From Curtobacterium oceanosedimentum (lineage in GTDB: Bacteria > Actinomycetota > Actinomycetes > Actinomycetales > Microbacteriaceae), in NCBI RefSeq assembly GCF_020297365.1, contig NZ_JAIXIG010000009.1, forward strand, positions 1 through 64,000: a DNA stretch of 64,000 nt, written 5' to 3'. Shown piece by piece: positions 24,106 through 53,186 of the stretch. Position numbers and translations under genes: made by a program. The notes under the pieces were generated by a model. That model did not search any database and was not told the origin of the DNA. It was given only the letters and a program-made list of their open reading frames with translations. The stretch's first letter is position 1. Each line of letters begins with the position of its first letter.

Positions 24106-25819
24106 GGCGCGTGCGCAGCTCCGGGAACTGGTCGTCACGCCACTCCCCCTCGGGCCGCGTGCCACCGGCGTGCGCCTGCTCCTCGCGCTCGCGCAGCTCG
24201 ACCCGGCGGATCTTGCCCGAGATGGTCTTCGGCAGCTCGGCGAACTCGACCCGGCGGACCCGCGCGTACGCCGGCAGGGCCGTCCGGGCGTGCTCGAGCA
24301 CGGCGCGCGCGGTCTCGGCGGTGGGCTCCCACCCGCCGGCGAGCGCCACGTAGGCCTTCACGACGTTGAGCCGGGCGTCGTCCGGCGCCGGCACCACGGC
24401 GCTCTCGGCGACGGCGGGGTGCTGCAGCAGGGCGCTCTCGACCTCGAACGGTGACACCTTGTAGTCCGACGACTTGAACACGTCGTCGGTCCGGCCGATG
24501 AACGTCAGCTGCCCGTCGGCGTCGCGCGCCGCGATGTCCCCGGTGTGGAAGAAGCCGTCGCGCATCGACGACTCGGTGCGCTCCGGGTCGCCGAGGTAGC
24601 CGGCCATCAGGTTCACCGGCCGCTCCGTCAGGTCGAGGCAGACCTCGCCCTCGTCGCTGGCTCGACCGGTCACCGGGTCGAGCAGCACCACGTCGACGCC
24701 GGGCAGGGGTGTGCCCATCGCACCGGGGGTCACCGGGTCGCCGGGCACGTTGCCGATGATCGCGGTGGTCTCGGTCTGCCCGTACCCGTCGCGGATCGTG
24801 AGGTCCCAGGCGGCGGCCACGCGGGCGATCACCTCGGGGTTCAGCGGCTCACCCGCGGACACCACCTCGCGCAGTGCACGGGGCCGGGCTCCGAGGTCGG
24901 CCTGCAGCATCATCCGCCACGCGGTCGGCGGCGCGCAGAACGTGGTGACCTCGGCCGCGTCGAGCTTCGCGAGCAGCCCGACCGGGTCGAACCGCGGGGT
25001 GTCGTGCACGAACACGGTCGCCTCGGCGATCCACGGGGCGAAGAAGCAGCTCCACGCGTGCTTGCCCCAGCCGGGCGAGCTGATCGCCAGGTGCACGTCG
25101 CCGGGACGCAGACCCAGCCAGTGCATCGTGCTGAGGTGCCCGACCGGGTACGAGGTCTGCGTGTGCACGACCATCTTCGGCTTCGACGTCGTACCGGACG
25201 TGAAGTACACCAGGCACGGGTCGGACGTGCGGGTCTCCACCACGGGACGGGTGGGTTCCCCCGAGGGCGCCGGCTCGCCCAGGTCCTCCGGGTACGCCGT
25301 CCAGCCGTCCGTCGGGCCGCCGATCACGATGCGCCCGAACGACCCGTGCACGCCCGCGTACTTCGCCGTCTCTCCGACGTTCGTGACGACGTGCGCCACC
25401 GACCCCCGGTCGACGCGGTCCTGCAGGTCGGCGGTGTCGAGCATCGTCGACGTCGGCAGGATCACCGCGCCGAGCTTGATGACGGCCAGCATGGTCTCCC
25501 ACAGCTCGAGCTGGTTGCCGAGCATGACGAGCACGTGGTCGCCCTTCGCGACGCCGTGCTCGTGCAGGAACACCGCCAGCCGGTCGGAGCGTGCGGCCAT
25601 CTCGGCGTAGCTGAACCGCTGCTCGTCGTCGGCACCCGCGATCCAGAGCGCGGTGCGGTCGTTGTCCTGCGCGATGACGTCGAACCAGTCGTTCGCCCAG
25701 TTGAACGTGTCGCCCAGGTCCGGCCAGGCGAAGCCGCTGCGGGCGGTCGCTGCGGAGTCGGCGGCGAGGAGCTGGTCGCGCGCAGCACGGTAGGCGGTGG
25801 TCACGGAGGATGAGGGCAC
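24083..25819 (-). CDS. AMP-binding acyl-CoA synthetase
   Basis: 578-residue adenylate-forming enzyme, probably a medium-chain or acetyl-type acyl-CoA ligase (ACSM-like). Motifs in order: P-loop YFTSGTTSKPKMV, the A4 region WGKHAWSCFFAPW, DGYGQTET, the hinge FIGRTDDVFKSSDYKVSPFEVE, and the catalytic Lys in LPKTISGKIRRVEL near the C-terminus. Length and order fit ACS family members of 550-600 residues. GTG start at 25817-25819; later starts are possible. Divergent from the mannosyltransferase gene with a 56-bp gap. Confidence 0.9.
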   Translation of the reverse strand: MPSSSVTTAYRAARDQLLAADSAATARSGFAWPDLGDTFNWANDWFDVIAQDNDRTALWIAGADDEQRFSYAEMAARSDRLAVFLHEHGVAKGDHVLVMLGNQLELWETMLAVIKLGAVILPTSTMLDTADLQDRVDRGSVAHVVTNVGETAKYAGVHGSFGRIVIGGPTDGWTAYPEDLGEPAPSGEPTRPVVETRTSDPCLVYFTSGTTSKPKMVVHTQTSYPVGHLSTMHWLGLRPGDVHLAISSPGWGKHAWSCFFAPWIAEATVFVHDTPRFDPVGLLAKLDAAEVTTFCAPPTAWRMMLQADLGARPRALREVVSAGEPLNPEVIARVAAAWDLTIRDGYGQTETTAIIGNVPGDPVTPGAMGTPLPGVDVVLLDPVTGRASDEGEVCLDLTERPVNLMAGYLGDPERTESSMRDGFFHTGDIAARDADGQLTFIGRTDDVFKSSDYKVSPFEVESALLQHPAVAESAVVPAPDDARLNVVKAYVALAGGWEPTAETARAVLEHARTALPAYARVRRVEFAELPKTISGKIRRVELREREEQAHAGGTRPEGEWRDDQFPELRTRRPGPTAD

Positions 25820-25875
25820 ACGACGATCATGCCGGATGCGAGTGCGACCGGGTCCGGGTTGGCCGGTCGTGCAGA

Positions 25876-27399
25876 ATGAGACCCGTCATGCCCGCTCCCG
25901 AACCGACCGTCGGCCGCACGCCGCGGGCACGCGCAACGACAGCCACGGTCGCGATCGCACTGTTCGGCACCCTGCTCACCGCGGTCGGCTCGTGGCAGCC
26001 CTCGTACTGGAACGACGAGGCGGCGAGTCTCCGGCTCGCCCGCCTGGACCCCGTCGAGATCCTGCGCTTCGTGCAGGAGAAGGACGCCGTGCACGCCGTC
26101 TACGCGCTGCTGCTGCACTGGTGGACCGCCGTGTTCGGCGAGACGGAGTTCGCCGTCCGGCTGCCGTCCGCGATCGCGGTCGGCGAGACGGAGTTCGCCG
26201 TCCGGCTGCCGTCCGCGATCGCGGTCGGGGCGACGGCGGCCGCGGTGTTCGTGCTGCTGCGACGGCTCGACGCACCCCGGGCAGCGCTGCCGGCGGCGAT
26301 CGCGGTGCTCCTGCTGCCCCGCGCGGCTGCGGCGGGCCTGGACGCCCGCTCCTTCGCACTCGCGACCGCCTGCCTCACGTGGTCGGCCGTCGCGCTCGTC
26401 ACCGCCGCACGCCAGCCGTCCCGCGGGCGGCAGTGGGTGCTGCTGGCCCTCGGCCTCGCCGCCTCCGTCGCGCTCTTCCTGTACTCGGCACTCGTGCTCC
26501 CGGCGTTCGTCGCGTGGGCGCTCTGCCAGCGGACGGACCGGCGCCGGATCGCCGTCCGCACGGCCCTCGCGAGCGCCGCGGCCCTGGCCGTCACCTCGCC
26601 CCTGGTGGTCCTGGCCGCCACGCAGCGCGGGCAGGTGGCGTGGCTGCGCGACCAACCCGTGAACCCGTGGACGGTCGGCGTCGAGAGCGTCTTCCTCGAC
26701 GCCTGGTGGCTCGCCGCCGGCGTCCTCGCCCTGCTCGTGACCACCCTGGTCGTGGCCGTCCGCCGCGGTCGCCGACCGGGTCCGGCCTGGCTGCTGTTCC
26801 TGCTCTGGGTCACCGTGCCGACTCTGGCGCTCGTGGCGGCCACCGTCACCCTCGGCCCGCTGTTCACGCCGCGGTACCTGACCATCGTCGTGCCCGCGGT
26901 GGCCGGCCTGGTCGGGTCGTCCATCGCAGCGCTTCGCGGCTCGTGGAGGCCCGTGGTCGCGACCGCGCTCATCGCGCTGTCCGTCCCGTCCTTCCTGACG
27001 GCACGTGGCGAGACCGCCAAACCCGGCGGGCAGCCGCTCCGGGCCGTCGCCACCTTCGTGCAGGAGCACGCCCGGTCCGGGGACGCCGTCGTGTTCGGCA
27101 CGACCGGCACGGTGTCCCTGCGGCCCCGGATCGCCCTGGCCGCCTACCCCGCGGCGTTCGCCGGGCTCGACGACGTCGCGTTCCGGTCGTCGTGGACGGG
27201 CACCGGCACGTACAGCGACCGGCTGCTCCCCCGTGCCGCGACCGCCCGGGCGGAGCTGCGGCACGACCGCGTCTGGGTCCTGGTCGGCAACGACGGGACC
27301 CGCCCGGGGGCGACGGGTGCGCAGCTGCTCGGGGCCGGGTACGAGCGCGTCGTGGAGCGGGACTTCGGGGGCATCACCGTCGAGGCCTGGGAGCGCTGA
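25876..27399 (+). CDS. GT39/PMT-type membrane glycosyltransferase
   Basis: About 507-residue polytopic membrane protein. After the first helix comes the catalytic-type Asp-Glu motif in YWNDEAASLRLARLD, then GETEFAVRLPSAI, a stretch conserved in PMT_2/ArnT-like polyprenyl-phosphate sugar transferases. Roughly ten further hydrophobic segments and a short extracellular C-terminal domain follow. Such enzymes glycosylate proteins or wall polymers on the outer face using lipid-linked sugar. GETEFAVRLPSAIAV is present twice in tandem owing to an exact 45-bp duplication. The start may be 25876 or 25888. Confidence 0.82.
   Translation: MRPVMPAPEPTVGRTPRARATTATVAIALFGTLLTAVGSWQPSYWNDEAASLRLARLDPVEILRFVQEKDAVHAVYALLLHWWTAVFGETEFAVRLPSAIAVGETEFAVRLPSAIAVGATAAAVFVLLRRLDAPRAALPAAIAVLLLPRAAAAGLDARSFALATACLTWSAVALVTAARQPSRGRQWVLLALGLAASVALFLYSALVLPAFVAWALCQRTDRRRIAVRTALASAAALAVTSPLVVLAATQRGQVAWLRDQPVNPWTVGVESVFLDAWWLAAGVLALLVTTLVVAVRRGRRPGPAWLLFLLWVTVPTLALVAATVTLGPLFTPRYLTIVVPAVAGLVGSSIAALRGSWRPVVATALIALSVPSFLTARGETAKPGGQPLRAVATFVQEHARSGDAVVFGTTGTVSLRPRIALAAYPAAFAGLDDVAFRSSWTGTGTYSDRLLPRAATARAELRHDRVWVLVGNDGTRPGATGAQLLGAGYERVVERDFGGITVEAWER
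26137..26226 (+). repeat. Exact in-frame 45-bp tandem duplication
   Basis: Bases 26137-26181 are repeated without change at 26182-26226, inserting 15 residues into the first external loop of the glycosyltransferase. Identity of the copies at every third position shows the event is recent. Confidence 0.95.
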
Positions 27400-28563: not shown

Positions 28564-30015
28564 TCAGGCGGTCGTCGCCCGCCCCCGGAGGAAGAGTGCC
28601 ACGGCCACGGCGGCGGCGATGCAGATGCCGCCGTTCACCCAGATCGCGGTCGTCACGCCGTCGAGCACCGCCGCGGCCGTCGACAGCGAGCTCCCGAGGA
28701 CGACAGCGGTGAAGACCGCACTCATGATGGGCGTTCCCATCGTGATGCCCACCTGCTGGCTCATCGTCGTCAGCCCCGTCGCGAGACCCTGTTCCCCGTC
28801 CGGCAGCCCGGACGTCGCGGTGACCATGAACCCGACGATGACGACGAGGTTCGCGACACCACCCACGAACGTCGCCACCAGGACGAGCCAGATCGACGAA
28901 GCCGCGGGACCGATGAGCACCAGGGGCAGCGTCGCCGCCCCCTGCACCAGGAACCCGCCGACGATCGCGGCCTTGTTGCCGAAGCGGCCGATGACACGAG
29001 GCCCGATCAGCCCGCCGATGACGGTGCCGATGCCGAGCACCGCGAAGGACAGCCCGGCGGCGAGCGGGGTGTACCCCAGCACCTCCTGCAGGTACAGGGT
29101 CAGCAGGAACACCAGGGACGTCTCGGTCACGAACGCGAGCATCCCGGCGATGTTCCCCCAGGACACGTTCGATCGAGCGAGGATCCCGAGTGGCACCAAC
29201 GGGAACGCCGCACGCCGTTCGACGAGTGCGAACGCGGCCAGGAGCAGCACCGCGACGGCGAACGCTGCCAGGTTCAGCGGGTCCGTCCAGGACGTCTCGG
29301 CCGCGCGGGTCAGACCGAACACCAGCGCCAGGAGCGCGAGCGTGACCGTGATGGCTCCCGGGACGTCGAGCCGCGTCCGCTGCGGCGCACGGCTGTCCCG
29401 CAGGACCATCGGGGCCACGATGAGCACCCCGACCGCCACGGGCACGTTGATGAAGAACGCCCACCGCCACGACAGGAGGTCGGTCAGCAGCCCCCCGAGG
29501 ATGGCACCCGTCGTGAAGCCAGCCGCCATCAACGACCCGTTCAGTCCCAGCGCCTTGTCGCGCAGTCGCCCCTCCGGGAACGCGTGCAGGAGCAACGCGA
29601 GGGCCGCGGGGACCACGATCGCGGTCGCGAACCCCTGCGCGACCCGAGCGGCCAACAGGATCCCGGGGGACGTGGCGAGGCCACCCGCGAGCGATCCGGC
29701 CCCGAGGAGGACCATGCCGATGAGGAACATCCGCCGACGGCCCGCGATGTCGGCGACACGGCCCATGAGCAGGGTGAACCCTGCCGAGCAGAGCGCGAAC
29801 GCGGTGGCGATCCACTGCAGGTTCTCGATGGCGAACCCGACGTCGGCACCGATGGTCGGCAGCGCGACGTTGAGGATCGAGAAGTCCACCGCGAGGGTGA
29901 AGCTGGCGGTGAGGAGCACCGTCAACGCGATGCGCTGCTTGCCGCTCATCGCGGTGGCGGGTGGGGTTGCTGTTGCGGTCGACGGAGTGACGTCCGCGGT
30001 ACGGTCCGTGGTCAC
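28564..30015 (-). CDS. DHA2-family MFS drug exporter
   Basis: 483-residue, 14-segment major facilitator. Family motifs are seen: motif C-region FSILNVALPTIG after helix 1, motif A GRVADIAGRRRMFLIG, and RVAQGFATAIVVPAALALL (motif B). The GTG at 30013-30015 is preceded by AGAGAGGG. It is divergent from an XRE/MmyB-type regulator across a 152-bp gap that holds an inverted repeat, the classic layout of a pump with its local regulator. Substrate unknown. Confidence 0.9.
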   Translation of the reverse strand: MTTDRTADVTPSTATATPPATAMSGKQRIALTVLLTASFTLAVDFSILNVALPTIGADVGFAIENLQWIATAFALCSAGFTLLMGRVADIAGRRRMFLIGMVLLGAGSLAGGLATSPGILLAARVAQGFATAIVVPAALALLLHAFPEGRLRDKALGLNGSLMAAGFTTGAILGGLLTDLLSWRWAFFINVPVAVGVLIVAPMVLRDSRAPQRTRLDVPGAITVTLALLALVFGLTRAAETSWTDPLNLAAFAVAVLLLAAFALVERRAAFPLVPLGILARSNVSWGNIAGMLAFVTETSLVFLLTLYLQEVLGYTPLAAGLSFAVLGIGTVIGGLIGPRVIGRFGNKAAIVGGFLVQGAATLPLVLIGPAASSIWLVLVATFVGGVANLVVIVGFMVTATSGLPDGEQGLATGLTTMSQQVGITMGTPIMSAVFTAVVLGSSLSTAAAVLDGVTTAIWVNGGICIAAAVAVALFLRGRATTA

Positions 30016-30114
30016 GGGAACCCTCTCTTCGTGCACGGGCGGACGGGGTCCGCGTTCAGTGGTGGTGTGGGCAACCCTGCCGAGGCGGCGGATCGGCAGC
30101 CACTCCCCGTCGTG

Positions 30115-30135
30115 CCTGTCACTACCAGGGACAGG
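30115..30135. promoter_or_regulatory. Candidate operator for the divergent pump/regulator pair
   Basis: CCTGTC-N9-GACAGG inverted repeat in the gap between the MFS gene and the XRE regulator, 33 bases before the regulator start. Confidence 0.4.
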
Positions 30136-30167
30136 ACAGATCGGTCCACTGGGCACACAATGAGGGG

Positions 30168-31052
30168 ATGAACGGTCCGAACGAGCTGGGGGACTTCCTT
30201 CGCGTCCGTCGCGCCGCTCTGCAACCCGGCGACGTCGGGCTGCGGGGCTACGGTGTGCGCCGCGTTCCGGGACTGCGTCGCGAGGAGCTCGCGATGCTCG
30301 CCGGGGTGAGTCCGACGTACTACTCGCGCCTGGAACAGGGGCTGAGCACGAACGCCTCCGAAGCGGTGATCGCCTCACTCGCACGGGCGTTGAACCTGAC
30401 GACGGACGAACGGGCGCACCTGTTCAACCTCGCGCGCCCGGAACGCTCCGCACCCAAGCGGCGTTCCCTGGCGCGACCCGACCACGCCAGACCCGGCACC
30501 GTGCGACTCATCAACTCGCTCACCGACACCCCCGCGGTCGTCATCGGCAAGCGGAGCGAGGTGCTCGGCTGGAACGCGCTCGGCCACCGCCTCGTCGCCG
30601 GACACGTCGACTTCGACAGCCCAGAACGGCTGCAGGACCGTCCGAACATGACGCGGCTGCTGTTCCTCGACGCACACACCAAGGAGCTGTACGCGCGGTG
30701 GGAGGAAGAAGCGGTCCGAGCGGTGTCCTCCCTGCGTGTGCTCGGCGGCAGGAGCCCCGAAGATCCCGAGCTCACCGCACTCGTCGGGGAGCTGACGGTG
30801 AAGAGCGCCGAGTTCGGCAAGCTCTGGGCGAAGCACCCGGTGGAGAACTGTGTCTCCGGCATCAAGGCGTTCCGGCACCCTGAGGTCGGCGACTTCGACC
30901 TCAACTTCGAGGTGCTGACGCCTCCCGACGACTCCGGCCACCGGGTGCTCATGTACACGCCCGATCCGGGGTCTGCGGCGGAGGGGGCACTCGAGCTGCT
31001 CAGCCGCGACGTGGACAGCACACCGACCAGGACCGCGCAGCGCAGCCACTGA
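30168..31052 (+). CDS. XRE regulator with MmyB-like ligand domain
   Basis: 294-residue regulator. The N-terminal helix-turn-helix includes GVRRVPGLRREELAMLAGVS and TYYSRLEQGLSTNASEAVI (residues 22-65). The C-terminal 190 residues are the MmyB-like ligand domain, a PAS-type fold (PAVVIGKRSEVLGWNALG, RWEEEAVRAVSSLR, HPEVGDFDLNFEVLTPPDD). Members bind small lipophilic ligands and often control adjacent exporters. Divergent from the DHA2 pump, which is its likely target. Confidence 0.88.
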   Translation: MNGPNELGDFLRVRRAALQPGDVGLRGYGVRRVPGLRREELAMLAGVSPTYYSRLEQGLSTNASEAVIASLARALNLTTDERAHLFNLARPERSAPKRRSLARPDHARPGTVRLINSLTDTPAVVIGKRSEVLGWNALGHRLVAGHVDFDSPERLQDRPNMTRLLFLDAHTKELYARWEEEAVRAVSSLRVLGGRSPEDPELTALVGELTVKSAEFGKLWAKHPVENCVSGIKAFRHPEVGDFDLNFEVLTPPDDSGHRVLMYTPDPGSAAEGALELLSRDVDSTPTRTAQRSH

Positions 31053-31111: not shown

Positions 31112-32281
31112 TCAGGCTGTGGGGACGGCGGCCGGTTCGGGTGCCGGCGCCTTCCGTCTCGGCCTGGCAAACCGGTCCATCATCGGCTTCTCGACAAGCG
31201 CGTAGAGCGCCCAGCCGCCGAGGATGGTGAGCCCGAGGAACCCGGCGATGACGAGCAGCGCCATCGGGGTCTCGAACGTGGCGTTGTGCATCACCTGACG
31301 GACCCAGAAGATGACGACGCCCTGGCAGAGGTAGAACCCGAACGACGTGTCTCCGAGCCACTGCATGGGCCGCGATCGCAGGAAGGTCGGCCGGCCGGCT
31401 GCGTCCCCTGCTGCGGCGGTCGCGATGAGGACGGCGATGGGGACGATCGTCGCGACGTTGAACGTCCACACGAACGGCACGACGTTCGCCACCGCGTAGC
31501 CGACGACGCAGAGGACGACCGCGTGCCACATGCGGACGGCCGGCCACCGCTGCTCCATGACGATGCGGGCGAGGATGGACCCGAGGACGAACTCGAACAG
31601 CCGGGTCGGCGGGAAGATGTAGCCGAACCAGAACTGGAACGACGACACCGGGGTCAGCGCGGACTTCGGCTCGTCCGGGACGACGGTGAGGTTGACGACC
31701 TGCACCAGGACCATGCCGACGACCATCATGGCCGCCCAGAACCAGAGTCGGTTCCCCGGGATGCGTCGCAACCCGAGGATGATGAGTGGGAACAGCATGT
31801 AGAACAGCAGCTCGCTGCACAGCGTCCACGACGGCGGGTTCACGGCCACGTTGACCGCTCCGTCGGGCGAGTACGAGTTCAGCAGGAAGAAGTTCAACAC
31901 CGCCGCGTGGGTCGGGGTGATCGACGCGGCGAACAGCACCATCGCCAGCACCCACATGACCAGGTGGTTCGGGAAGATCTTCACGATGCGGCGCCGCCAG
32001 AACGACGTCATCTTCTCGCCCGGCCGCGCCGCCCACGCCAGCAGGAACCCGCTGAGGACGAAGAAGAACGACACACCGATGTAGCCGGTCGTGACGAAGA
32101 CCTTCTCGGTCGCGTCGGCGACCTGCGCGTCGGCGAACAAGCTGATCGGGTCGTTCGGCGGGATGGGCGACGCGGACAGGGTGATGTGGAACCCGAACAC
32201 CAGGAACGCCGCGAAGAACCGAAGTCCGGTCAGCGACGGCAGCTTCGGGGGCCGCTCCGTCGTCGGCGCTTCGATCGTCAT
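31112..32281 (-). CDS. Acyltransferase 3 family membrane protein
   Basis: 389-residue OafA/YrhL-type O-acyltransferase with about ten membrane segments. The catalytic His is in RFFAAFLVFGFHITL near the start, the FFFVLSGFLLAWA motif follows, then RRRIVKIFPNHLVMW, and SWTLCSELLFYMLFPL with the conserved Glu. It transfers acyl groups to sugars or metabolites across the membrane. It is the last gene of a six-gene operon with the flavin oxidase, propeller, exporter, epimerase and cupin genes; ATG overlaps the oxidase stop (ATGA). Confidence 0.9.
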   Translation of the reverse strand: MTIEAPTTERPPKLPSLTGLRFFAAFLVFGFHITLSASPIPPNDPISLFADAQVADATEKVFVTTGYIGVSFFFVLSGFLLAWAARPGEKMTSFWRRRIVKIFPNHLVMWVLAMVLFAASITPTHAAVLNFFLLNSYSPDGAVNVAVNPPSWTLCSELLFYMLFPLIILGLRRIPGNRLWFWAAMMVVGMVLVQVVNLTVVPDEPKSALTPVSSFQFWFGYIFPPTRLFEFVLGSILARIVMEQRWPAVRMWHAVVLCVVGYAVANVVPFVWTFNVATIVPIAVLIATAAAGDAAGRPTFLRSRPMQWLGDTSFGFYLCQGVVIFWVRQVMHNATFETPMALLVIAGFLGLTILGGWALYALVEKPMMDRFARPRRKAPAPEPAAVPTA

Positions 32282-34008
32282 CGCTCGCTGTCCTTCCGTG
32301 CGGGCAGTTCGACGCCGAGGCTGTGGGTGAAGTAGTCCGTGGGATCCCACTCCTGCTTCGTGCGCTGCAGCCGGGGGTAGTTGCCCTTGTAGTACAGGGT
32401 CGACCACGGGACGCCCGACCGGTTGTGCTTCGGGTCCGCCATGTCGACGTCCGGGTAGTTGATGTAGCAACCGTCCATCTGCGCCCCCGGTACGGGGACG
32501 CCGCCGGTGGCGGGGAACAGACCCTCGAACGTCTCCCGTTCCCAGCCGAGGTAGAAGGCGTCGTCCTTCTCGTCCTGCCAGAATGTCTGCAGGCAGATCT
32601 TGAAGATGGTGTCCCGTTGGGCGTTGGCAGTGGCGTCCTCCGCGACCGCGTTGACCTGGCCGCCGAAGGAGAAGACCACCATCATCGTGTCCGGGTTGGT
32701 GAAGTCCGCGCGCGTCATCTGCTTCCACATGACGCGGAGCTGCTGACTGCTGAAGCCCTTCTTGAAGTAGGCACTCTTGTGCGCGCCACGGCTGGTCGGG
32801 TTCGTGATCGTCGGGTTGTTCGTGCCGACGGTACGGGTCGCCTGCATCCACGAGAGCTCCTTCGTCTCGTGGAGGTCGGGCAGCGCCGGCAGCTCTCCGC
32901 TCGGAGTGGTCATCGGCTCGGAGGCGACGTTCACCCCGGCGGTGATCGCGGCGATGAACCGGCTGAGCACTCCGGCTGCGTCCGGGGCGTCGGCATCGAT
33001 CTGCGTGAACATGCCGAGGCTGCCGTGGGCCCTGTGGTTCAGGTTGAACAAGCTCGACAGGTTCGACTCCGGTGTCCCCGGGCCCTTGTGTCGCTCGTGC
33101 CAGGCGTTCCAGTTCGTCATGAGCCGGCGGAACTCGGTCTCGTCGACCTTGTCCCACGGGAACGACAGGGCGTTCACGAGCACTCGGGAGGGCGCCCTGA
33201 CGAGCAGCTTCGACGGATCCGACCCGGTGGCGCCAGGGCTGCGGAACCAGTACTTGGTGACGACACCGAAGTTCCCGCCACCCCCGCCGGTGTGTGCCCA
33301 CCACAGGTCACCGAGCGTACCCGTGGAGTCGCGGGTCGCGATGTGCGTGCTGACCCTCCGCCGTTCGTCGACCGTGACGACCTCGACGGCGTACAGGTGG
33401 TCGACGACGAGGCCGTGCGCCCTCGTGAGGAGTCCGTAGCCGCCGCCCGCGATGTGCCCTCCTGCGCCGACGCTGTAGCAGATGCCCCCGGGGATGGTGA
33501 CTCCCCACCCCTTGAAGAGCTTCTCGTACACGTTCAGCAGGCGCGCTCCGGGTTCGACGGCGAAGGCGCGCATCACCGGGTCGTAGGAGACCTGGTTCAT
33601 CGCGGACAGGTCGAGGATGACCTCGACCTCGGGGTTGCAGACGAAGTCCGCGAAGCAGTGCCCGCCGCTGCGGACCGACACCTTCTTCCCGGCGCGGACG
33701 GCGGTGCGGACCGCCTGTTCGGCGTCCTTCGTGGACCCGATGAGGCGGATGTAGTCCGGCTTCGCCACGAACCGCACGTTGTTGCCGGTCATCATGTCGA
33801 GGTAGCGGGAGTCACCCGGCGCGATGACCGTCCCCGTGGGAGCGGCCGCGGATCCTGCCGTGCCGGTGCCCGAGGGCGACGCCGCGACCGGGCTCGCCTT
33901 CTCGAGCGCGACCATCGCGCCCGCTGCTGCGGTGCCGGCGGACCCGAACAGGAATGCTCTGCGGCCGACGTTGCTCGTCGGTGTGGTGGTGTCGTCCTTC
34001 GTGGGCAT
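32278..34008 (-). CDS. Tat-exported BBE-type FAD-dependent oxidase
   Basis: 576-residue flavoprotein. The N-terminal NVGRRAFLFGSAGTAAAGAMVA is a twin-arginine signal, so it should fold with FAD inside and act outside. FAD_binding_4 motifs are clear: VRSGGHCFADFV (His for covalent flavin) and GGICYSVGAGGHIAGGGYG, whose Cys is placed to form the second, cysteinyl, flavin bond. The C-terminal berberine-bridge-like segment is YYKGNYPRLQRTKQEWDPTDYF. Relatives oxidise oligosaccharides or alkaloids. In this operon a sugar substrate is likely. Four bases upstream is the propeller-gene stop. Confidence 0.9.
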   Translation of the reverse strand: MPTKDDTTTPTSNVGRRAFLFGSAGTAAAGAMVALEKASPVAASPSGTGTAGSAAAPTGTVIAPGDSRYLDMMTGNNVRFVAKPDYIRLIGSTKDAEQAVRTAVRAGKKVSVRSGGHCFADFVCNPEVEVILDLSAMNQVSYDPVMRAFAVEPGARLLNVYEKLFKGWGVTIPGGICYSVGAGGHIAGGGYGLLTRAHGLVVDHLYAVEVVTVDERRRVSTHIATRDSTGTLGDLWWAHTGGGGGNFGVVTKYWFRSPGATGSDPSKLLVRAPSRVLVNALSFPWDKVDETEFRRLMTNWNAWHERHKGPGTPESNLSSLFNLNHRAHGSLGMFTQIDADAPDAAGVLSRFIAAITAGVNVASEPMTTPSGELPALPDLHETKELSWMQATRTVGTNNPTITNPTSRGAHKSAYFKKGFSSQQLRVMWKQMTRADFTNPDTMMVVFSFGGQVNAVAEDATANAQRDTIFKICLQTFWQDEKDDAFYLGWERETFEGLFPATGGVPVPGAQMDGCYINYPDVDMADPKHNRSGVPWSTLYYKGNYPRLQRTKQEWDPTDYFTHSLGVELPARKDSER

Positions 34009-34011: not shown

Positions 34012-35280
34012 TCAGCCTTCCTGCTGCGGAGTGCGGTTGCGGTGGAGGGTGATCTCCGCCTTCGGCGCGACGAAGTAGTGCGGGACGGAGTAGGAGATGG
34101 TGGCGAAGTCGTCGACCCCGCGGTTGCCGAAGTCGCCGGCGACGATGCGGGCGATGGACTCGGCGGAGACCTTCCACTTGGCGAAGATCCCCTTCTCGAG
34201 GTCGAGCGCCTTGTAGTAGTAGGCGCCCTGCCAGGGTTCGGGTCCGCGGAGGCCGATGAGGAACTCGTCGTCACCGTCGCCGTCGAAGTCGCGGCACATG
34301 ACCGTGTGCCCCGGCCCTTCGCCGTTCTCGTTCGGGTCGCCGTAGATGTCGAGCAGGTGTCGCCGCCAGGAGGACGCCTCGGTGTCGCCGGTCGTCCGGG
34401 TGTACACCGCCACCGTGTTGCCGTGGAACGGTTCGATGGCGGCGACGTACGCGAGCGGGTCGTCACCGACACGGCCGCCGTCGACGTCACCGGAGCCCTT
34501 GAAGGTGGTCTGCTCGAACTGGCCGGTCTCACCGTCGCCGATGTGCTCCCGCACGAACCGGTCGTCGTCCTCGTCGTAGTAGAACCAGGTGACGCCCTCG
34601 TCGGACGCCATCAGGATGCTGTCCAGTGCCGATCCGGGGATCAGGCCCGGCTTGCTGGCGACACCGTGGATCATGCGGAAGTCGGTCCGGTTGATGACCT
34701 CGGCGTCCCACTCCTGCGTGGGGTCGTCCGGCTGGGTGAACAGCATGACGGGGAGCACGGCGTGGACGTCCTCGACGGCGACGATGGGGAAGCCCATGAC
34801 CTGGATGCGGTCGGTCCGCGAGAAGTGCCCGACGCGCAGACGGTGCATCCCGGTTGCTCGACCGATGTAGTGGCGCTTCCAGTTCTCGCGGCTGATCGCC
34901 GGGTCGCCGGGGTTCTCGAGCCAGTCGATCTTCCCGCCTTCGCCGTCGGCGTGGTGGATGGTCCCGCCGGGCCCGTACAGCTGGTAGCAGACGACGAGGT
35001 CGGGCAGGCCGTTGCCGGTGATGTCGCCGGTCCCGGCGCCGACGGGTTCCTTGATCTTGTCGACGATGAGGTGCTTCTCCCACGTCGGCGCCTGGTACCA
35101 GTAGATCTCGCCGACGGTGAGCCCGTACCCGATCAGGTCGAGGTTGCCGTCACCGTCGACGTCGGCGGCTTCGAGCCAGTACCCGTCACGGAGGAAGTCG
35201 GTGACGGTCTCGGTGGAGAAGGAGGGGACGGTGACCGGCAGCGTCGGTGCAGCCGTGCCCGGCACGATCTGTGTGCTCAT
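34012..35280 (-). CDS. Beta-propeller half of an aldos-2-ulose dehydratase-like enzyme
   Basis: 422-residue FG-GAP/VCBS-repeat propeller without signal peptide. Several stretches closely match my recollection of the N-terminal propeller of fungal AUDH (Phanerochaete): DGYWLEAADVDGDG, IGYGLTVGEIYWY, GMHRLRVGHFSRTDRIQV with FPIVA, EPFHGNTVAVYT, and DFATISYSVPHYF. Fungal AUDH is about 900 residues with a propeller followed by cupin domains; here the protein ends where the cupins should begin, and the matching cupin is encoded separately at 37755-38438 in the same operon. AUDH dehydrates glucosone or 1,5-anhydrofructose. ATG at 35278-35280 with AGGAAGG upstream. Confidence 0.8.
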   Translation of the reverse strand: MSTQIVPGTAAPTLPVTVPSFSTETVTDFLRDGYWLEAADVDGDGNLDLIGYGLTVGEIYWYQAPTWEKHLIVDKIKEPVGAGTGDITGNGLPDLVVCYQLYGPGGTIHHADGEGGKIDWLENPGDPAISRENWKRHYIGRATGMHRLRVGHFSRTDRIQVMGFPIVAVEDVHAVLPVMLFTQPDDPTQEWDAEVINRTDFRMIHGVASKPGLIPGSALDSILMASDEGVTWFYYDEDDDRFVREHIGDGETGQFEQTTFKGSGDVDGGRVGDDPLAYVAAIEPFHGNTVAVYTRTTGDTEASSWRRHLLDIYGDPNENGEGPGHTVMCRDFDGDGDDEFLIGLRGPEPWQGAYYYKALDLEKGIFAKWKVSAESIARIVAGDFGNRGVDDFATISYSVPHYFVAPKAEITLHRNRTPQQEG

Positions 35281-35297
35281 GGTGGTGCCTTCCTGGG

Positions 35298-36506
35298 TCA
35301 GGTGGTGATGGTGGTGGTCTGTGGCGGATGCGTCACGACGCGACGGCGGTGGGCGCCCGATGCGATGACGATGAGGGCGAACGCGGTCGCCGCGAGCAGC
35401 GCACCGACGACGATCGGCGACCGGTACCCGAGCCCGGCCGCGATGGTCAGTCCCCCGAGCCACGCCCCGATGGCGTTGCCCGCGTTGAAGGCGGAGATGT
35501 TCACCCCGGAGGCGAGCGTGGGCGCCGCTTCGGCGAAGCGGAGCACCCGCATCTGCATGCCGGGGACGGACGCGAACCCGACGGCGCCGAGGAGGAACAG
35601 CGCGCCGCCGGCCGCCCACGGGTTCGATGCGACGACGCTGAAGACGACGAGGACGACGGTCAACGAAGCGAGCAACGTCAGCAGCGCCGGATCGAGGTCA
35701 CGGTCGGCCGCTCGGCCTCCGACGAGGTTCCCGACGAACAGGCCGCTCCCGAACAGGACGAGCATCCACGGGATCCACGTCGTGGGCATCCCGGCGACGT
35801 CGGTGAGGATGGGTGCGATGTAGGTGAACGTCCCGAACATGGCTCCGAAACCGAACACGGTGACGCAGATCGACAACCACACCTGCCCGCTGCGGAACGC
35901 GGCGAGCTCCCGGCGGAGCTGCCCTGCGGGCCGGTGTTCCGCCTCCTGTCCGGGGATGAACGCCAGCAGCCCGACCAGGGCGACCACGCCGATCCCGGTG
36001 ATGGCCCAGAAGGTCGACCGCCACCCGAGCGCCTGACCGAGGAACGTCCCGAGTGGGACCCCGAGGACGTTCGCGACGGTGAGGCCGAGGAACATCGTCG
36101 AGATCGCCCGCGCTCGCCGGTCCGGTTGCACCAGGGACGCCGCGAGCACGGATCCGATCCCGAAGAACGCTCCGTGGCAGAGCGCGGCGACGACACGGCC
36201 GACGAGCATCGCGGAGTACGTGGGAGCGACGGCCGACAACAGGTTGCCGATGATGAACAGCACCATCAGCGAGCTCAGCACCGTCTTCGGCCGCATGGAG
36301 GCGGTGGCCGCCGTCACGAACACCCCACCGAACGCGACGCTGACGGCGTACCCCGAGACGAGGTACCCGGCCTGCGGGATGGTGACGGAGAAGTCGGCGG
36401 CGACCTCGGGGAGGAGCCCGAGGATGACGAACTCCGTCAGGCCGATGCCGAACCCGCCGAGCGCGAGCGCGACGAGGCCGACGGGGACGTTCCCGCCCGT
36501 GCTCAT
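35298..36506 (-). CDS. MFS exporter, DHA1/AraJ-like
   Basis: 402-residue, 12-segment major facilitator. The N-terminus GFGIGLTEFVILGLLPEVAADF and motif C-type region GYLVSGYAVSVAFGG match the arabinose/chloramphenicol efflux (AraJ/YdhP) group. Helix 4-5 region VAALCHGAFFGIGSVLAASLV carries the conserved GxFF. ATG overlaps the epimerase stop (ATGA) and 17 bases separate it from the propeller gene, so it is mid-operon and probably exports the pathway product. Confidence 0.88.
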   Translation of the reverse strand: MSTGGNVPVGLVALALGGFGIGLTEFVILGLLPEVAADFSVTIPQAGYLVSGYAVSVAFGGVFVTAATASMRPKTVLSSLMVLFIIGNLLSAVAPTYSAMLVGRVVAALCHGAFFGIGSVLAASLVQPDRRARAISTMFLGLTVANVLGVPLGTFLGQALGWRSTFWAITGIGVVALVGLLAFIPGQEAEHRPAGQLRRELAAFRSGQVWLSICVTVFGFGAMFGTFTYIAPILTDVAGMPTTWIPWMLVLFGSGLFVGNLVGGRAADRDLDPALLTLLASLTVVLVVFSVVASNPWAAGGALFLLGAVGFASVPGMQMRVLRFAEAAPTLASGVNISAFNAGNAIGAWLGGLTIAAGLGYRSPIVVGALLAATAFALIVIASGAHRRRVVTHPPQTTTITT

Positions 36507-37669
36507 GCGAGGGAGGGAACCGTGTCGGCGCCGGGCACGAACGGCATGACCGCGGGACCCATACCGAAGTAGTTCGCGATCGCCGCGATCGTGCGCTCCG
36601 TCGCCCGGCCGTCGCCGTAGGGGTTGATGGCGCCGGCCATCTCCGCGTAGGCGTCCGGGTCGTTCAGCAGTCGCTGCACCTCGGCGACGATCTGGCCGCG
36701 GTGCCGGCTCACCAGGCGGGACGACCCGGTGAGGATGGACTCGCTGCGTTCGGTGACCTCGCGGAGCACCAGCGTCGGCTTCCCGAGCGCCGGTCCCTCC
36801 TCCTCTGCCCCCGAGCTGTCGGACAGGATGATGTCGCTCCGGCGCAGGAGCCGGCAGAACGACAGGTACGGCAGCGGGTCGACGATCGTCACGTTGTCGA
36901 TCCCGGACAGGACCGGCAGCATCACCGCCCGCACCTTCGGGTTCAGGTGCAGCGGGACGACGATGCGGACGTCGTCGCGGGTGGCGATGTCGGCCAGGGC
37001 CTCCGCGATCTCCTGCATCGGTTGTCCGTGGCTCTCCCGCCGGTGGGTCGTCGCGAGGATCACCCGCCGTGGGTCGGTGTCGAGGTCCTCCAGCCTCGGG
37101 TCCCCGTAGGAGCGCAGGTTCTGCATCCCCCAGGCGAGCGCGTCGACGATGGTGTTCCCCGTCACCGTGATGGCGCTCTCGCGGATCCCTTCCCGGATGA
37201 GGTTGGCGTGGTTCCCCGGGGTCGGCGCGAGGTGCAGCGCTGCGATCTGCCCGACGAGCTTCCGGTTCGCTTCCTCCGGGAACGGTGATGCGTTGCTGCC
37301 GGAGCGGAGCCCGGCTTCCACGTGGATGACGGGCACCTGTGCGTGGAGGCCGGCGAGGGCTCCGGCGAGGGTGGTGGCGGTGTCCCCGTGGACGAGGACG
37401 GCGTCGAGGCCGTCGAGGTGTCCGCCTGAGCAGAGCCCTTCAAGGATGCGGTGCGTGACCTCGGAGAGGGTCTGTCCATCACGCATGATGCGCAGGTCGA
37501 CGTCGGGGACGATGCCGAACTCTTCGAGGGTGCTGGTGAGCATCTCCCGGTGCTGACCGGTGGAGATGAGGACGGTGCGGAACCGGTCGTCGCCGCGGAG
37601 TGCGTGGATGAGTGGGGCGTACTTGACGGCTTCGGGTCGGGTGCCGAAGACGATGCCGAGGGTCTTCAT
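36503..37669 (-). CDS. wecB: UDP-N-acetylglucosamine 2-epimerase (non-hydrolysing) homologue
   Basis: 388-residue GT-B fold enzyme, normally interconverting UDP-GlcNAc and UDP-ManNAc. Family motifs: IVFGTRPEAVKYAPL at the start, VHGDTATTLAGALAG, IHVEAGLRSGS, PEEANRKLVG, ATTHRRESHG. The UDP-binding motif usually written SDSGGxQEE reads SDSSGAEEE here, a departure at a conserved site. CAGGAG lies eight bases before the ATG. It sits between the cupin gene and the exporter, so an amino-sugar nucleotide may enter this pathway. Substrate could differ from the textbook one. Confidence 0.88.
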   Translation of the reverse strand: MKTLGIVFGTRPEAVKYAPLIHALRGDDRFRTVLISTGQHREMLTSTLEEFGIVPDVDLRIMRDGQTLSEVTHRILEGLCSGGHLDGLDAVLVHGDTATTLAGALAGLHAQVPVIHVEAGLRSGSNASPFPEEANRKLVGQIAALHLAPTPGNHANLIREGIRESAITVTGNTIVDALAWGMQNLRSYGDPRLEDLDTDPRRVILATTHRRESHGQPMQEIAEALADIATRDDVRIVVPLHLNPKVRAVMLPVLSGIDNVTIVDPLPYLSFCRLLRRSDIILSDSSGAEEEGPALGKPTLVLREVTERSESILTGSSRLVSRHRGQIVAEVQRLLNDPDAYAEMAGAINPYGDGRATERTIAAIANYFGMGPAVMPFVPGADTVPSLA

Positions 37670-37754
37670 GGTGGTGCTCCTGCCTGGTTTCGGGAACGCC
37701 GGAGGAACCGGTGACGGACCGGCCGACGTCGGGAGATGGTGGGAGGTGCGGGAG

Positions 37755-38438
37755 TCAGCTCGCGTGGTACTCGAGCGCGAGCCAGATGCAGTCGCTGTCA
37801 GCCCGGTACTGGTGCCACGGGTAGGTGAACTCGCCGTCCAGGTCGATGCAGAACGGGATCGGGTTCGTGGTACCGGGGCTGAGCTGCTGGTCTTCGTAGA
37901 TCGTGTCGTGGCGCTTGTCGTCGAACTTCTGCATCCGACCCGTCCCCGTGATCTGGGTGTGCACCTCGATGAACGGGTGGACGTTGTGGATCCCGCAGTC
38001 GGTCCCCGCCGGGCTGAACCAGAGGTTGGCCTTCACGACGAATGCTTCCGGCTGCGGGTCGAGCGCCGGCTGGTGCAGCACGGTGCGGCGGTCGAGGGTG
38101 ACGGTGCCGATGGTGTCCTGCGGAGACTTCAGCAGCACCGGTCCCCCATCGCCGTAGAAGTCCTGCCAGCCGATGGCTCGCGCCTGCTGTTCCTGGTCAC
38201 CGACGTCGTGGGCGGTGATGGCGAGCAACAGCTCCCCGGTGACCGTCCCGCTCACCAGGTTCGTGGAGCTCAGCGGCGGCAGCGGCCCCAGCTGCGCCGT
38301 CCCGGTGAAGGCGTCCGTCTGCGCGAGGTTCACGACGACGGTGCGCTCCGTGATCGGGAACTCGACCACTTCCCGGAGGACGACCGCGGATGCGAGCTCG
38401 CTGTCGAAGTTCAGTTTCTCTGCAGTGATGACGTTCAT
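37755..38438 (-). CDS. Cupin half of an aldos-2-ulose dehydratase-like enzyme
   Basis: 227-residue cupin. The segment ANLWFSPAG, then HNVHPFIEVHTQITGTGRMQ, and the end TYPWHQYRADSDCIWLALEYH line up with the AUDH_Cupin region of fungal aldos-2-ulose dehydratase as I recall it (QLWTAGIG, GFHNHVEASFCEIH, GTGR, DYPWHAWL, VWVAFEF). The His/Glu pattern HNxHPFxExH suits a metal site. First gene of the operon whose fourth gene encodes the missing propeller domain. Assignment by motif, no search run. Confidence 0.75.
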   Translation of the reverse strand: MNVITAEKLNFDSELASAVVLREVVEFPITERTVVVNLAQTDAFTGTAQLGPLPPLSSTNLVSGTVTGELLLAITAHDVGDQEQQARAIGWQDFYGDGGPVLLKSPQDTIGTVTLDRRTVLHQPALDPQPEAFVVKANLWFSPAGTDCGIHNVHPFIEVHTQITGTGRMQKFDDKRHDTIYEDQQLSPGTTNPIPFCIDLDGEFTYPWHQYRADSDCIWLALEYHAS

Positions 38439-42798: not shown

Positions 42799-42916
42799 CT
42801 ACATGTAGTGGTCCACGGCGTGTCGCAGCACTACATGCGCCATTGCTACGCGACTATAGCGGTGTCGAAGAGGGGTGGAACGTCCACTCGTTCGCGGCAG
42901 GAAGGAGCGCGGAGTC

Positions 42917-43042
42917 ATGGCCAAGTCCGGCAAGAGCAGCGGCGGTTCGTCGCGAAGCTCGATCACTGGCAAGTTCGTGACGTCGAAGTACGCGAAGTCG
43001 CACCCCAGCACCACGCAGACCTCGCACAAGAAGAGCAAGTAA
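42917..43042 (+). CDS. 41-residue MAKS-type small basic protein
   Basis: MAKSGKSSGGSSRSSITGKF is followed by VTSKYAKSHPSTTQ and a Lys-rich end. AGGAGCGCGGAG precedes the ATG. The family occurs widely in bacteria and is sometimes mislabelled multidrug transporter; real function unknown. A second copy starts at 43465 on the other strand with 20 of the first 25 residues in common. It ends before a perfect hairpin at 43066. Too short for most gene finders. Confidence 0.75.
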   Translation: MAKSGKSSGGSSRSSITGKFVTSKYAKSHPSTTQTSHKKSK

Positions 43043-43130: not shown

Positions 43131-43262
43131 CTACTGCTGCGACGGCTTCGGTTTTGGCGGCTGGATCTGCGAGTTCGGGGGCCGCACGGCCGGCGGTCGC
43201 TGCACGTTCGCGGGCTGGATGCCGAACTGGCCGCCGGGCTCCCGCGACTTGTTGTCGGTCAC
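43131..43262 (-). CDS. 43-residue proline-rich protein
   Basis: GTG start overlaps the stop of the second MAKS gene (GTGA, 43259-43262), so it should be co-translated. The sequence VTDNKSREPGGQFGIQ, then PANVQRPPAVRPPNSQIQPP, ends in a Pro/Lys/Gln tail. The stretch parallels the C-terminal extension of the MAKS protein just upstream (GMQAAHVQFRPSVRPSSSRIQPP), so the two look like an ancient tandem duplication or a fusion in progress. Confidence 0.55.
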   Translation of the reverse strand: MTDNKSREPGGQFGIQPANVQRPPAVRPPNSQIQPPKPKPSQQ

Positions 43263-43465
43263 GAGTCAGGCTGCGAATTCGTCGGCGGCTGGATCCGCGA
43301 GCTGGACGGGCGAACTGAGGGACGGAACTGCACGTGCGCGGCCTGCATGCCACGCTCGGTCACTCGAGACGTGGCGAGGTGCGACTTCGCGTACTTCGCC
43401 GTCACGAACTTGCCCGTAACGGAACTGCGCGATGAACCGCCACTGCTCTTGCTGCTCTTCGCCAT
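43259..43465 (-). CDS. MAKS-type small protein with proline-rich extension
   Basis: 68 residues. The first 28 (MAKSSKSSGGSSRSSVTGKF, VTAKYAKSH) copy the 41-residue protein at 42917. The tail, after VTERG, matches the separate 43-residue protein encoded directly downstream. So this gene looks like a MAKS core fused to a second copy of the proline-rich module. GAGGAGG precedes the ATG. Divergent from the DUF6338-like gene, 41 bases away. Confidence 0.65.
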   Translation of the reverse strand: MAKSSKSSGGSSRSSVTGKFVTAKYAKSHLATSRVTERGMQAAHVQFRPSVRPSSSRIQPPTNSQPDS

Positions 43466-44799: not shown

Positions 44800-45891
44800 C
44801 TAAAGCTGTTCCGCTCGTTGCCGACTCAACGCGGAGGAAACGTTGTCCAGATCGTCGGGGAACAGCGCCGCGTAAGTGTCAAGAGTGACTTTCGCCGACT
44901 TGTGGCCCAGCATCCGCTGGACGACTTTGACGTTGGCACCAGCGCTGATCGCGAGTGATGCAGCTGTGTGCCTGAGGTCATGTGGTGTGACTCGGCGGAA
45001 GCTTGCATCGGCCGCCATCGTCCGCTGGACGGCCTTCGCGAACCATCCCTGGCTGGAGTGCCCTGGCCGGAGGAAACCTCCGACCGGTGACGACCAGAGA
45101 CGATCGTCGGGGTGCTTGCCCCGACAGGCCGCGGCAACAGCAGAGTCGAGGAAGTCGGGAAACGCAACGGAGCGCCTTTCATGGGACTTAACGCTGCCCA
45201 GGACGTGTTGACCGTTCACCTCCGTCACTCCCTCTCGGATATTGAGGCGACGTCGACCGAGGTCAACGCTACGAACCCGCAAGGCAGTGGCCTCGCCCCA
45301 TCGGAGCCCGGTGTACGCAAGCAGCCGGACAAGCTCGCCATACCTGGCTTCTGAGGCCAGCGCCTTGACCTGCCGATGTGTCAGGAACACCTCGTCGGGG
45401 ATCGGCTTCTTTTTGACTGTGAGGCCGCGCGCAGGGTTCTTCACCACACGGTTCTCCTCGATCGCTTCATCGAGGATGCCAGCGAGCAGGTCTCGGGCTC
45501 TCGCCACGGAGGTGTGCGAGAGCGAATACCCAAGTTCGTTCAGCCACGTTTGGACGTCTCGCTTGGTGACTCGGCCTACGGCATACCCTCCCCACTTTGG
45601 TTCGACGTGCACGCGCCAGCAGCTTTCAACGGAGTGGAAGCTGCTTTGGGTGAGCTTGAATCGGTGCATCTCGAGCCAGGCTGTCCCGAGCTCGCCGATG
45701 GTCACTCGCGCATCTGTTGGATCGACGTAGGAACCTCGCAACTTCGACACCTCGACTGTGTTGAGGTAGTTGATGGCATCGGTCTTTCGGCGGAAGCCGC
45801 GGTCATGACCGCGAGTCCCATCAGGTTTGCTGTACCAGACCTCGTAAAGCTTGCCCCGGGTCTTCGTCTCGTAGGACTTGACTGTCCCCAT
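44800..45891 (-). CDS. int: Tyrosine-type site-specific integrase
   Basis: 363-residue phage-type integrase, expected to insert the island at tRNA-Ser(CGA). It has an N-terminal arm-binding domain (KLYEVWYSKPDGTRGHDRGF), a SAM-like core-binding domain (about 65-150) and the catalytic domain with all residues in place: Arg in YTGLRWGEATAL, His-x-x-Arg in TPHDLRHTAASL, His in MLGHKSAKVTLDTY, and the nucleophile Tyr at the end of that motif. The excisionase gene ends four bases upstream on the same strand. Confidence 0.94.
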   Translation of the reverse strand: MGTVKSYETKTRGKLYEVWYSKPDGTRGHDRGFRRKTDAINYLNTVEVSKLRGSYVDPTDARVTIGELGTAWLEMHRFKLTQSSFHSVESCWRVHVEPKWGGYAVGRVTKRDVQTWLNELGYSLSHTSVARARDLLAGILDEAIEENRVVKNPARGLTVKKKPIPDEVFLTHRQVKALASEARYGELVRLLAYTGLRWGEATALRVRSVDLGRRRLNIREGVTEVNGQHVLGSVKSHERRSVAFPDFLDSAVAAACRGKHPDDRLWSSPVGGFLRPGHSSQGWFAKAVQRTMAADASFRRVTPHDLRHTAASLAISAGANVKVVQRMLGHKSAKVTLDTYAALFPDDLDNVSSALSRQRAEQL

Positions 45892-51776: not shown

Positions 51777-52520
51777 ATGACGACACGTCTTCAGATCGCC
51801 CGAGCGCGGGCTCGCGTTGCCCTCGCCGAAAGGATGGGCGAGGAGTTGCCGGACAGCGTTCACAAACTCGCAGCGATGGACTTCGCAGACGCCGAACACA
51901 CTGCGGCAGCCGGCCGAGGTCGCGAAGACCGCCAGCGGCCGTGGCGCGGAGACCTGGCACCCTTGCTGGGTGTTCACGGCGCGGGTCACGACTTCGGGCG
52001 CTCACCAGAGTTGGAGCACCCGCGGGACGCCCAGGGGCTAGAGCATCGCGAAGAGCAGGCGATCCTCGAGTCCCTTCCTTGGACGCATGAGCAATACGAA
52101 GCAGCAAGGACTTCCGTGGCGCGTGGCGACCTTGACGCGCTCGAACGCAGTGTCAGGCAGAGCGCGCTGAACGCCGCAATCACCTTCGCGGAGGCATCCG
52201 ACTGGCTGGAGATGGGGACTGCGCGGATACTTGCGCGACTCGCGTCAGGGGACTTGTTCGCATTCGTCGCGGACGACGAGTTACTGTTCCCGGCGTGGCA
52301 GTTTACGGACGACCCCGACCGCCCGGTCTTAAATCAGCTGTCGACCTTGATCGAAGCATTTGATGCTGACATGCACCCAGCGTCGATCCTTGGCTTCATG
52401 ACGACACCGCACTCCTCCACACGAATCGACGGCATCCGGAGCACCCCTGTCCAATGGCTCGCCGGGGGGCATCCGATTCAGCCCTTGGTTGAGATACTTG
52501 GGGCCAGGCGCCTGATGTGA
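51777..52520 (+). CDS. Protein with MbcA/ParS-type antitoxin C-terminal domain
   Basis: 247 residues. The C-terminal third (LLFPAWQFTDDPDRPVLNQLSTLIEAF, SILGFMTTPHSSTRIDGIRSTPVQWLAGG) follows the DUF2384/Xre-MbcA-ParS toxin-binding pattern (PxWQF, FL/M-x-TP, PxxxLxxG). The middle has a helical segment with ALNAAITFAEASDWLEMGTARILARLASGDLFAF, probably the helix-turn-helix part. No RES-domain toxin follows; downstream DNA is degenerate. The N-terminal 90 residues match nothing I know. Confidence 0.6.
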   Translation: MTTRLQIARARARVALAERMGEELPDSVHKLAAMDFADAEHTAAAGRGREDRQRPWRGDLAPLLGVHGAGHDFGRSPELEHPRDAQGLEHREEQAILESLPWTHEQYEAARTSVARGDLDALERSVRQSALNAAITFAEASDWLEMGTARILARLASGDLFAFVADDELLFPAWQFTDDPDRPVLNQLSTLIEAFDADMHPASILGFMTTPHSSTRIDGIRSTPVQWLAGGHPIQPLVEILGARRLM

Positions 52521-53186
52521 CAGCAGTCGCGTGACCTCGGGACGAATGTCCGCGGTTCGACGGCCATAGGAATTCTTATCACGCTGATCGGGATCACGGT
52601 GGTGGTCATGCAGTCAAGCTGTCGCGCCTACGGTCAAAGCCCACCCGCGCTGATGCGTTGGCGAGTCCCGGCATCGACGCAGCCCGCGCTGAGCTGCAGG
52701 AAGCGATCCCTCCTGCGCGAAGCCCGTTCGGAGGCCTGGCGACAAAGGCGATGCTTCCTTCGAACCGGCCGGTGAGGCCTTTCCGCCTGCAGGCTGCTCG
52801 CGGCCGCTCTGGACAACCTGCCGATCACCGAGGTGTTCACATGGCAGACCCACTCGGTCAACCGCGGAATGGTGTCCGTGCTCGGACGCCGCGGGTACGA
52901 CCCGATAGCGGACGACATCGAGAGCCAGGCCCGCACGTCCCCGAAGCGGGGCGACGGCGTCTCCGACACTGCCCGAAAGATGGCGGCATGCTTGGAGAAA
53001 AGCCGCATCGGCAGGTGGGTGACCCACTCGGCGGCAACCTGGCCGGAAGTGTCGCCCGCAGTTAAGCACACTGACTCCGGCCCCCCGAGTACGACGGAAG
53101 TCGGCCGCCCCGAAGGACGGCCGGCCTTCGTCATGTCCCGGCGGCTTGTGGCCGCCCGGAGGTCAGCTCAGGTCGACAGAGCACGG
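52521..53186. other. Degenerate region, no intact gene
   Basis: A plus-strand reading (LPITEVFTWQTHSVNRGMVSVLGRRGY, around 52820-52900) looks like a fragment of a larger protein but has no start or domain context. An imperfect hairpin at 53093-53132 probably terminates the SIR2/STAND gene. Confidence 0.4.
53093..53132 (-). terminator. Probable terminator of the SIR2/STAND gene
   Basis: Imperfect inverted repeat with arms around GACGGCCGG, 54 bases after the stop at 53187. Confidence 0.4.

Follow-up and report, generated by a model that had tools for sequence, protein, structure and literature searches.

Introduction

In white-rot fungi, where pyranose 2-oxidase and aldos-2-ulose dehydratase (AUDH) go together, AUDH turns glucosone into cortalcerone. 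Its known substrates are neutral sugars, modified forms of glucose from which it makes small ring compounds resembling antibiotics, and the enzyme of Phanerochaete chrysosporium (PDB 4a7k, 4a7y and 4a7z) is one chain. The fungal and algal anhydrofructose pathway consists of alpha-1,4-glucan lyase, anhydrofructose dehydratase and ascopyrone tautomerase, and 1,5-anhydrofructose is the product of glucan lyase according to the available text of PMC12441222. Within the open-access PMC literature searched, as far as its texts were available, AUDH chemistry is described from fungi alone and no bacterial AUDH was found described, which is not proof of absence.

Here we analyze a 64,000-nucleotide stretch of Curtobacterium oceanosedimentum (contig NZ_JAIXIG010000009.1, positions 1 to 64,000; hereafter the window), in which two genes probably encode the dehydratase and isomerase catalytic modules of AUDH as separate proteins, a propeller and a bicupin, within a small biosynthetic operon. 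A preliminary description of this DNA had read the pair as a split AUDH and as new. Support for this reading comes from the two modules' homology to, and shared fold with, a single fungal chain; its novelty agrees with the literature result above but is qualified by the domain-level names that some bacterial propellers already carry, while those cupins that have been named are called hypothetical.

Two bacterial proteins correspond to one fungal chain

The seven-bladed propeller is homologous to AUDH over its whole length. It matches PF22301 (E 9.7e-55) in a Pfam search, in which FG-GAP families match too, and 4a7k (E 2.4e-70), the sole PDB sequence match at E ≤ 1, which bears out the AUDH likeness first suggested from short motifs. 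Judged by sequence, this likeness is far beyond chance. The alignment covers AUDH residues 12-429 and pairs H146 of the propeller with His155, reportedly identified by Claesson in 2012 as the catalytic residue of the fungal enzyme, and the histidine is kept in all 81 context-grouped bacterial rows. The fungal positions H215, H295 and H337, which we take to be the zinc ligands of the propeller, are also conserved in the bacterial propellers. All motifs quoted in the preliminary description, including DGYWLEA and ISYSVPHYF in the propeller and HNVHPFIEVH, GTGR and YPWHQY in the cupin, were found in the translations.

For the cupin, the relation to AUDH is marginal by sequence, and the comparison of predicted folds makes the case. 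The protein scores 26.1 bits against PF18637 (AUDH_Cupin; cut-off 25) over 62 of 308 positions, and no PDB sequence was matched by single-sequence phmmer or by a 20-row profile; we therefore turned to structure prediction. The protein contains two cupin barrels, and VIA-align of the predicted structure ranks the AUDH entries first, with the bicupin matching AUDH residues 454-734 by fold. The query-normalised TM-score for 4a7z, 0.54, is the highest among the 50 Foldseek matches shown. The cupin residues H151, H154, E158, H160 and H209 are invariant. Two results count against the assignment: sequence detectability is low, only 18 of 121 bacterial cupin members matching AUDH_Cupin, and by the E-value of Foldseek alone 4a7z ranks 20th, with BacB, seed storage proteins and oxalate decarboxylase ahead of it. 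The proposal that this protein is the cupin part of AUDH thus holds by fold and is borderline by sequence score. The opposite outcome, unrelated folds that do not co-align with AUDH, is contradicted, as both proteins map onto one fungal chain.

Both modules of the fungal enzyme are therefore alignable, with the His155 position kept in the bacterial propeller, but what is one chain in the fungus is encoded by two separate genes in the bacterium. The part of AUDH after residue 734, which is presumably a lectin domain, has no counterpart in the window proteins, which end short of it, and a domain search of eight window genes found no lectin domain. The bacterial pair also differs in being known from sequence and predicted fold and in having an epimerase, an oxidase and an acyltransferase among its neighbours.

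The pair is linked in several phyla

Among 99 genomes, the window's own and those of relatives, the propeller was found in six and the cupin in five, all five belonging to the same genus, the window's included. The nearest named proteins place the window's genome in or near Curtobacterium. A phylum-wide sample had the propeller above the cut-off in 2 of 396 genomes, one of them the window's own; this sample being sparse, we used a species-wide contig scan to examine linkage. A third match in that sample, below the cut-off (L008/L020, genome G198), was dropped, no window gene being matched.

The scan covered 84,980 species, one genome each, with two peptide patterns and gave 108 propeller loci, the best 80 of which were analyzed as the propeller with up to 10 kb on each side. 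The cupin is present in 66 of the 80, always on a different open frame from the propeller, and these 66 all carry, in addition, an epimerase gene (60 loci) or a GH31 gene (6 loci). The pairs come from Actinomycetota, Pseudomonadota, Cyanobacteriota, Bacillota and Bacteroidota. The remaining 14 loci have no cupin nearby, and a whole-genome search of these 14, run with no positive control, also found none; one of them, L047, is of little value for linkage, its contig beginning about 180 bp before the propeller. The strength of the linkage is lessened by the sampling, as the 80 loci were ranked by likeness to the query, are rich in Streptomyces and are not independent; repeats (L021 of L014, L022 of L015, and L095, which looks the same as L090) occur among them and among the 65 epimerase rows used below. 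Homology, fold, operon organisation, linkage across phyla and residue conservation, including that of the histidine said to be catalytic, are nevertheless direct observations.

A propeller tree, from which L019, L021, L022 and L095 were omitted, groups the loci by context. Neither the deep forks nor the fungal row (end branch 3.93) can be relied on, so the tree gives no basis for deciding which way fusion or transfer went.

Propellers occur in three gene contexts

In the 60 loci with epimerase and cupin, homologues above 100 bits were detected for the oxidase (45/60), the acyltransferase (44/60) and the major facilitator superfamily (MFS) protein (49/60) of the window. The epimerase scores 395 bits against TIGR00236 (WecB; cut-off 210) and is the sole TIGR00236-type match in three genomes (G000, G010, G011). 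We aligned 65 such cluster epimerases (a few of them repeats) with 33 ordinary homologues, the majority of which belong to the same phylum. The catalytic residues D96, E118, E132 and H209 are kept in the cluster rows. In the phosphate-binding loop, all 65 have Ser286 (DSSG) where all 33 ordinary homologues, as well as the five solved-structure alignments shown, have Gly (DSGG in WecB). Gly292 (65/65) is rare or absent in the ordinary homologues, and the residues shown for them do not include Ala98 (64/65) or Thr299 (65/65). According to the available text of PMC4793188, Ser302 of human GNE is a ligand of the beta-phosphate and, together with Arg113, a hallmark of hydrolysing enzymes, the non-hydrolysing epimerases having Gly and Thr at these positions. 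By our own mapping Ser286 would be the equivalent of Ser302, so that the cluster epimerases appear to combine a hydrolysing-type Ser with a non-hydrolysing-type Thr97. The window protein thus shares the family score and the catalytic Asp/Glu/Glu/His with WecB/MnaA and KasQ, but the cluster enzymes differ from WecB/MnaA in the loop Ser, like the hydrolysing GNE of that paper without its Arg.

The six GH31 loci (L083-L088) come from four cyanobacteria, a Paenibacillus and a metagenome-assembled genome of Marinilabiliaceae, and contain the propeller, the cupin and a protein of about 1000 residues, which is GH31 in all five scanned; the sixth, from L086, clusters with them and shares their motifs. 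Each of the six proteins contains the motifs WQDMTTP and LPWFRNHY. In the alpha-1,4-glucan lyase of known structure (2x2h) the corresponding sequences are WQDMTVP and LPWFRNHY, and maltase-glucoamylase has W-x-DMNE; in our own reading the motif would mark lyases. By total score, summed over several stretches, maltase-glucoamylase comes first and the lyase second, which speaks against this. These loci (e.g. L087:9974-15580) match the step set of the fungal and algal pathway and may encode the whole of an anhydrofructose pathway in bacteria, starting from starch or glycogen, whereas the window operon has no GH31 gene and carries a homologue of uridine diphosphate (UDP)-sugar 2-epimerase in its place.

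GMC oxidoreductases are found in 13 of the 14 loci without cupin. The NCBIfam pyranose-oxidase cut-off (544.9) is passed by the proteins of L092 (616 bits), L070 (561), L076 (551) and, as a partial protein, L019 (618), a 4 kb contig with the pyranose oxidase beside the propeller; those of L074, L075 and L078 are 83-92% identical to the L070 protein. The arrangement recalls the pyranose 2-oxidase and AUDH of white-rot fungi, but six of these loci (L070, L074, L075, L076, L078 and L092; e.g. L092:582-7460) have no cupin nearby, and a cupin search of the six genomes, with no positive control, gave no match. A different GMC type is present in L089, L091, L094, L096, L097, L099, L100 and L018, the six scanned scoring 55-69 bits with the pyranose-oxidase model. 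A gene belonging to one cluster is found with the propeller in L070, L074, L075, L078 and L092, the L092 member being GH15 glucoamylase-like. Separately, 11 cupin-less propeller loci carry an AP_endonuc_2 (sugar-isomerase-like) gene of one cluster, which might replace the cupin there. A pyranose oxidase has been described from Oscillatoria princeps (available text of PMC11650716); its placement beside the L087 propeller was considered, but L087 gave no match when two bacterial pyranose oxidases were used as tblastn queries. The genome that contains L087 has three GMC matches, one of which may be the published enzyme. In all three contexts, the neighbouring genes could plausibly provide substrates for AUDH.

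Proposed pathway

We infer the activity, substrate and product of the pair from its sequences, taking as a model for the propeller step the mechanism of fungal AUDH, in which zinc polarises the C2 carbonyl and a histidine assists the loss of the C4 hydroxyl. By the same chemistry, the propeller with zinc would dehydrate a 2-keto-1,5-anhydrohexose (1,5-anhydrofructose or a close analogue) to an ascopyrone-M-like enone, which the bicupin would isomerise to a microthecin-like pyranone. Because some loci have the propeller without the cupin, we read the halves as independent enzymes and not as an obligate complex. In a less certain preceding step, the epimerase homologue would eliminate UDP from a UDP-sugar and free a glycal; from UDP-glucose this would be 2-hydroxyglucal, the enol of 1,5-anhydrofructose. 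The product may then be exported by the MFS protein, oxidised outside the cytoplasm by the flavin adenine dinucleotide (FAD) oxidase, and acylated by the acyltransferase.

That the epimerase became a UDP-glucose lyase, with the operon making 1,5-anhydrofructose and the split AUDH a microthecin-like antibiotic pyranone, is a tentative proposal that we consider somewhat improbable. Several findings tell against it. The Arg that marks hydrolysing enzymes is absent, all 65 cluster epimerases having T97. The residues mapped to the effector site for UDP-N-acetylglucosamine (UDP-GlcNAc) are largely kept (QHRE in the window, R210 in 62/65, H241 in 65/65), which suggests UDP-GlcNAc as the substrate, the effector mapping being our own. 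GalU-like genes occur in just 13 of the 60 epimerase loci and not in the window's operon, and in L024, L082 and L098 the gene lies on the strand opposite the propeller. KasQ, an epimerase of an antibiotic cluster, releases 2-acetamidoglucal and is inactive on UDP-glucose (available text of PMC8869731), so that UDP-GlcNAc is at least as natural a substrate.

Elimination from UDP-GlcNAc to 2-acetamidoglucal is thus an equally serious rival. Here the propeller and cupin would convert 2-acetamidoglucal into an acetamido-pyranone, an AUDH-like chemistry on a new substrate, and we find this credible although short of probable. The enzyme scores as WecB and keeps the catalytic and most of the mapped effector-site residues of its family, the release step has the KasQ precedent, and a glycal plus UDP is thermodynamically favoured over UDP-sugars and normally must be held in the enzyme, as the available text of PMC11464976 states. 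It is opposed by the extra GalU-like genes of the 13 loci: in each of the ten genomes searched (of the 13), two or more GalU matches exceed 300 bits, including one at the locus, and the locus copy is therefore an extra one (the one GalU-like protein scanned, that of L060, reaches 324.8 bits where the cut-off is 326.8). The neutral-sugar substrates of AUDH also oppose it, as does the retention of the same residues in propellers from neutral-sugar contexts.

It is also conceivable, but quite unlikely, that the oxidase makes a glucosone-like 2-keto sugar for the propeller, as the fungal pyranose oxidase does, and that the epimerase makes UDP-N-acetylmannosamine for a separate decoration. The oxidase gene starts 3 bp past the propeller stop, has homologues in most epimerase loci, and is paralleled by the pyranose oxidases adjoining the propeller elsewhere. 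However, 15 of the 60 epimerase loci have no detected oxidase (some contigs are short), whereas epimerase and cupin are present in all 60. The oxidase has an N-terminus resembling a twin-arginine translocation signal (RRAFLFGSAG, judged by eye) and is probably exported, and the propeller shows no such signal by eye. Moreover, the sugar oxidation known for berberine-bridge-type oxidases is at C1. Finally, chance neighbourhood of an FG-GAP propeller and a generic cupin, unrelated scaffold proteins, would fit the cupin at the edge of detection, the FG-GAP matches and the Foldseek order, but is highly improbable and already contradicted by the mapping of both proteins onto one fungal chain, with other folds far behind, and by their linkage in 66 of 80 loci.

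Operon layout and other features of the window

The preliminary description had placed both genes in one operon, and their open frames proved exact, on the minus strand, in a co-directional run and with high GC (guanine plus cytosine) at third codon positions (Table 1). By codon position, GC is 0.65/0.44/0.93 for the propeller and 0.64/0.42/0.92 for the cupin. The order is cupin, epimerase, MFS exporter, propeller, FAD oxidase and acyltransferase, with successive gaps of 85, -4, 17, 3 and -4 bp. This order is conserved in four fetched same-genus relatives that possess propeller and cupin, and in all four the operon is flanked by the regulator and the second MFS transporter. The MFS exporter scores 346 bits with NCBIfam Cmx/CmrA, under the model cut-off of 400.

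Table 1 Genes of the operon and its conserved flank in the window
Feature	Position	Strand	Description	Proposed role
AUDH-like seven-bladed propeller	34012..35280	-	422 aa; ATG at 35280, TGA at 34012	proposed zinc-dependent dehydratase
AUDH-like bicupin	37755..38438	-	227 aa; ATG at 38438, TGA at 37755	proposed isomerase
WecB-type UDP-sugar 2-epimerase homologue	36503..37669	-	388 aa; PF02350 7.1e-104; TIGR00236 395 bits	proposed UDP-sugar lyase
MFS exporter	35298..36506	-	402 aa; PF07690; 4 bp overlap with epimerase	
Berberine-bridge-type FAD oxidase	32278..34008	-	576 aa; PF01565 and PF08031	proposed tailoring oxidase
Membrane acyltransferase (Acyl_transf_3)	31112..32281	-	389 aa; PF01757 4.6e-29; start at 32281	proposed product acylation
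XRE/MmyB-type regulator, divergent, conserved flank	30168..31052	+	PF17765 8.9e-50	
Second MFS transporter, conserved flank	28564..30384	-	PF07690 1.5e-55; start uncertain	

Elsewhere in the window, a membrane-protein-like open reading frame (ORF; 25810-27399) has a short exact tandem duplication at the protein level, GETEFAVRLPSAIAV occurring twice consecutively. Two small ORFs on opposite strands (42875-43042 and 43259-43465) encode closely alike Lys/Ser-rich peptides, a small duplicated family with the pattern KSSGGSSRSS-x-TGKFVT-x-KYAKSH (KSGKSS in the 42875-43042 ORF). An integrase-like ORF, judged by eye, lies at 44800-45891, and the stretch 52001-56590 has lower GC (0.55 at 54-56 kb) and adjoins a tRNA-Ser (56501-56590); the integrase-like ORF and this stretch are possibly a mobile element.

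Implications

If the UDP-glucose proposal is true, these operons would provide a starch- and glycogen-independent route to 1,5-anhydrofructose and would represent a widespread class of sugar-derived natural products in bacteria, none of which we found described in the available texts of the open-access PMC literature. The epimerase signature might also show how an epimerase changes into a lyase through its phosphate loop. If the pair is active, its two small proteins would allow the dehydratase and the isomerase to be assayed and swapped singly, which is hard in the fused 900-residue fungal enzyme, and reactive pyranones, possibly with antibacterial action, could be made from glucose in five or more bacterial phyla.
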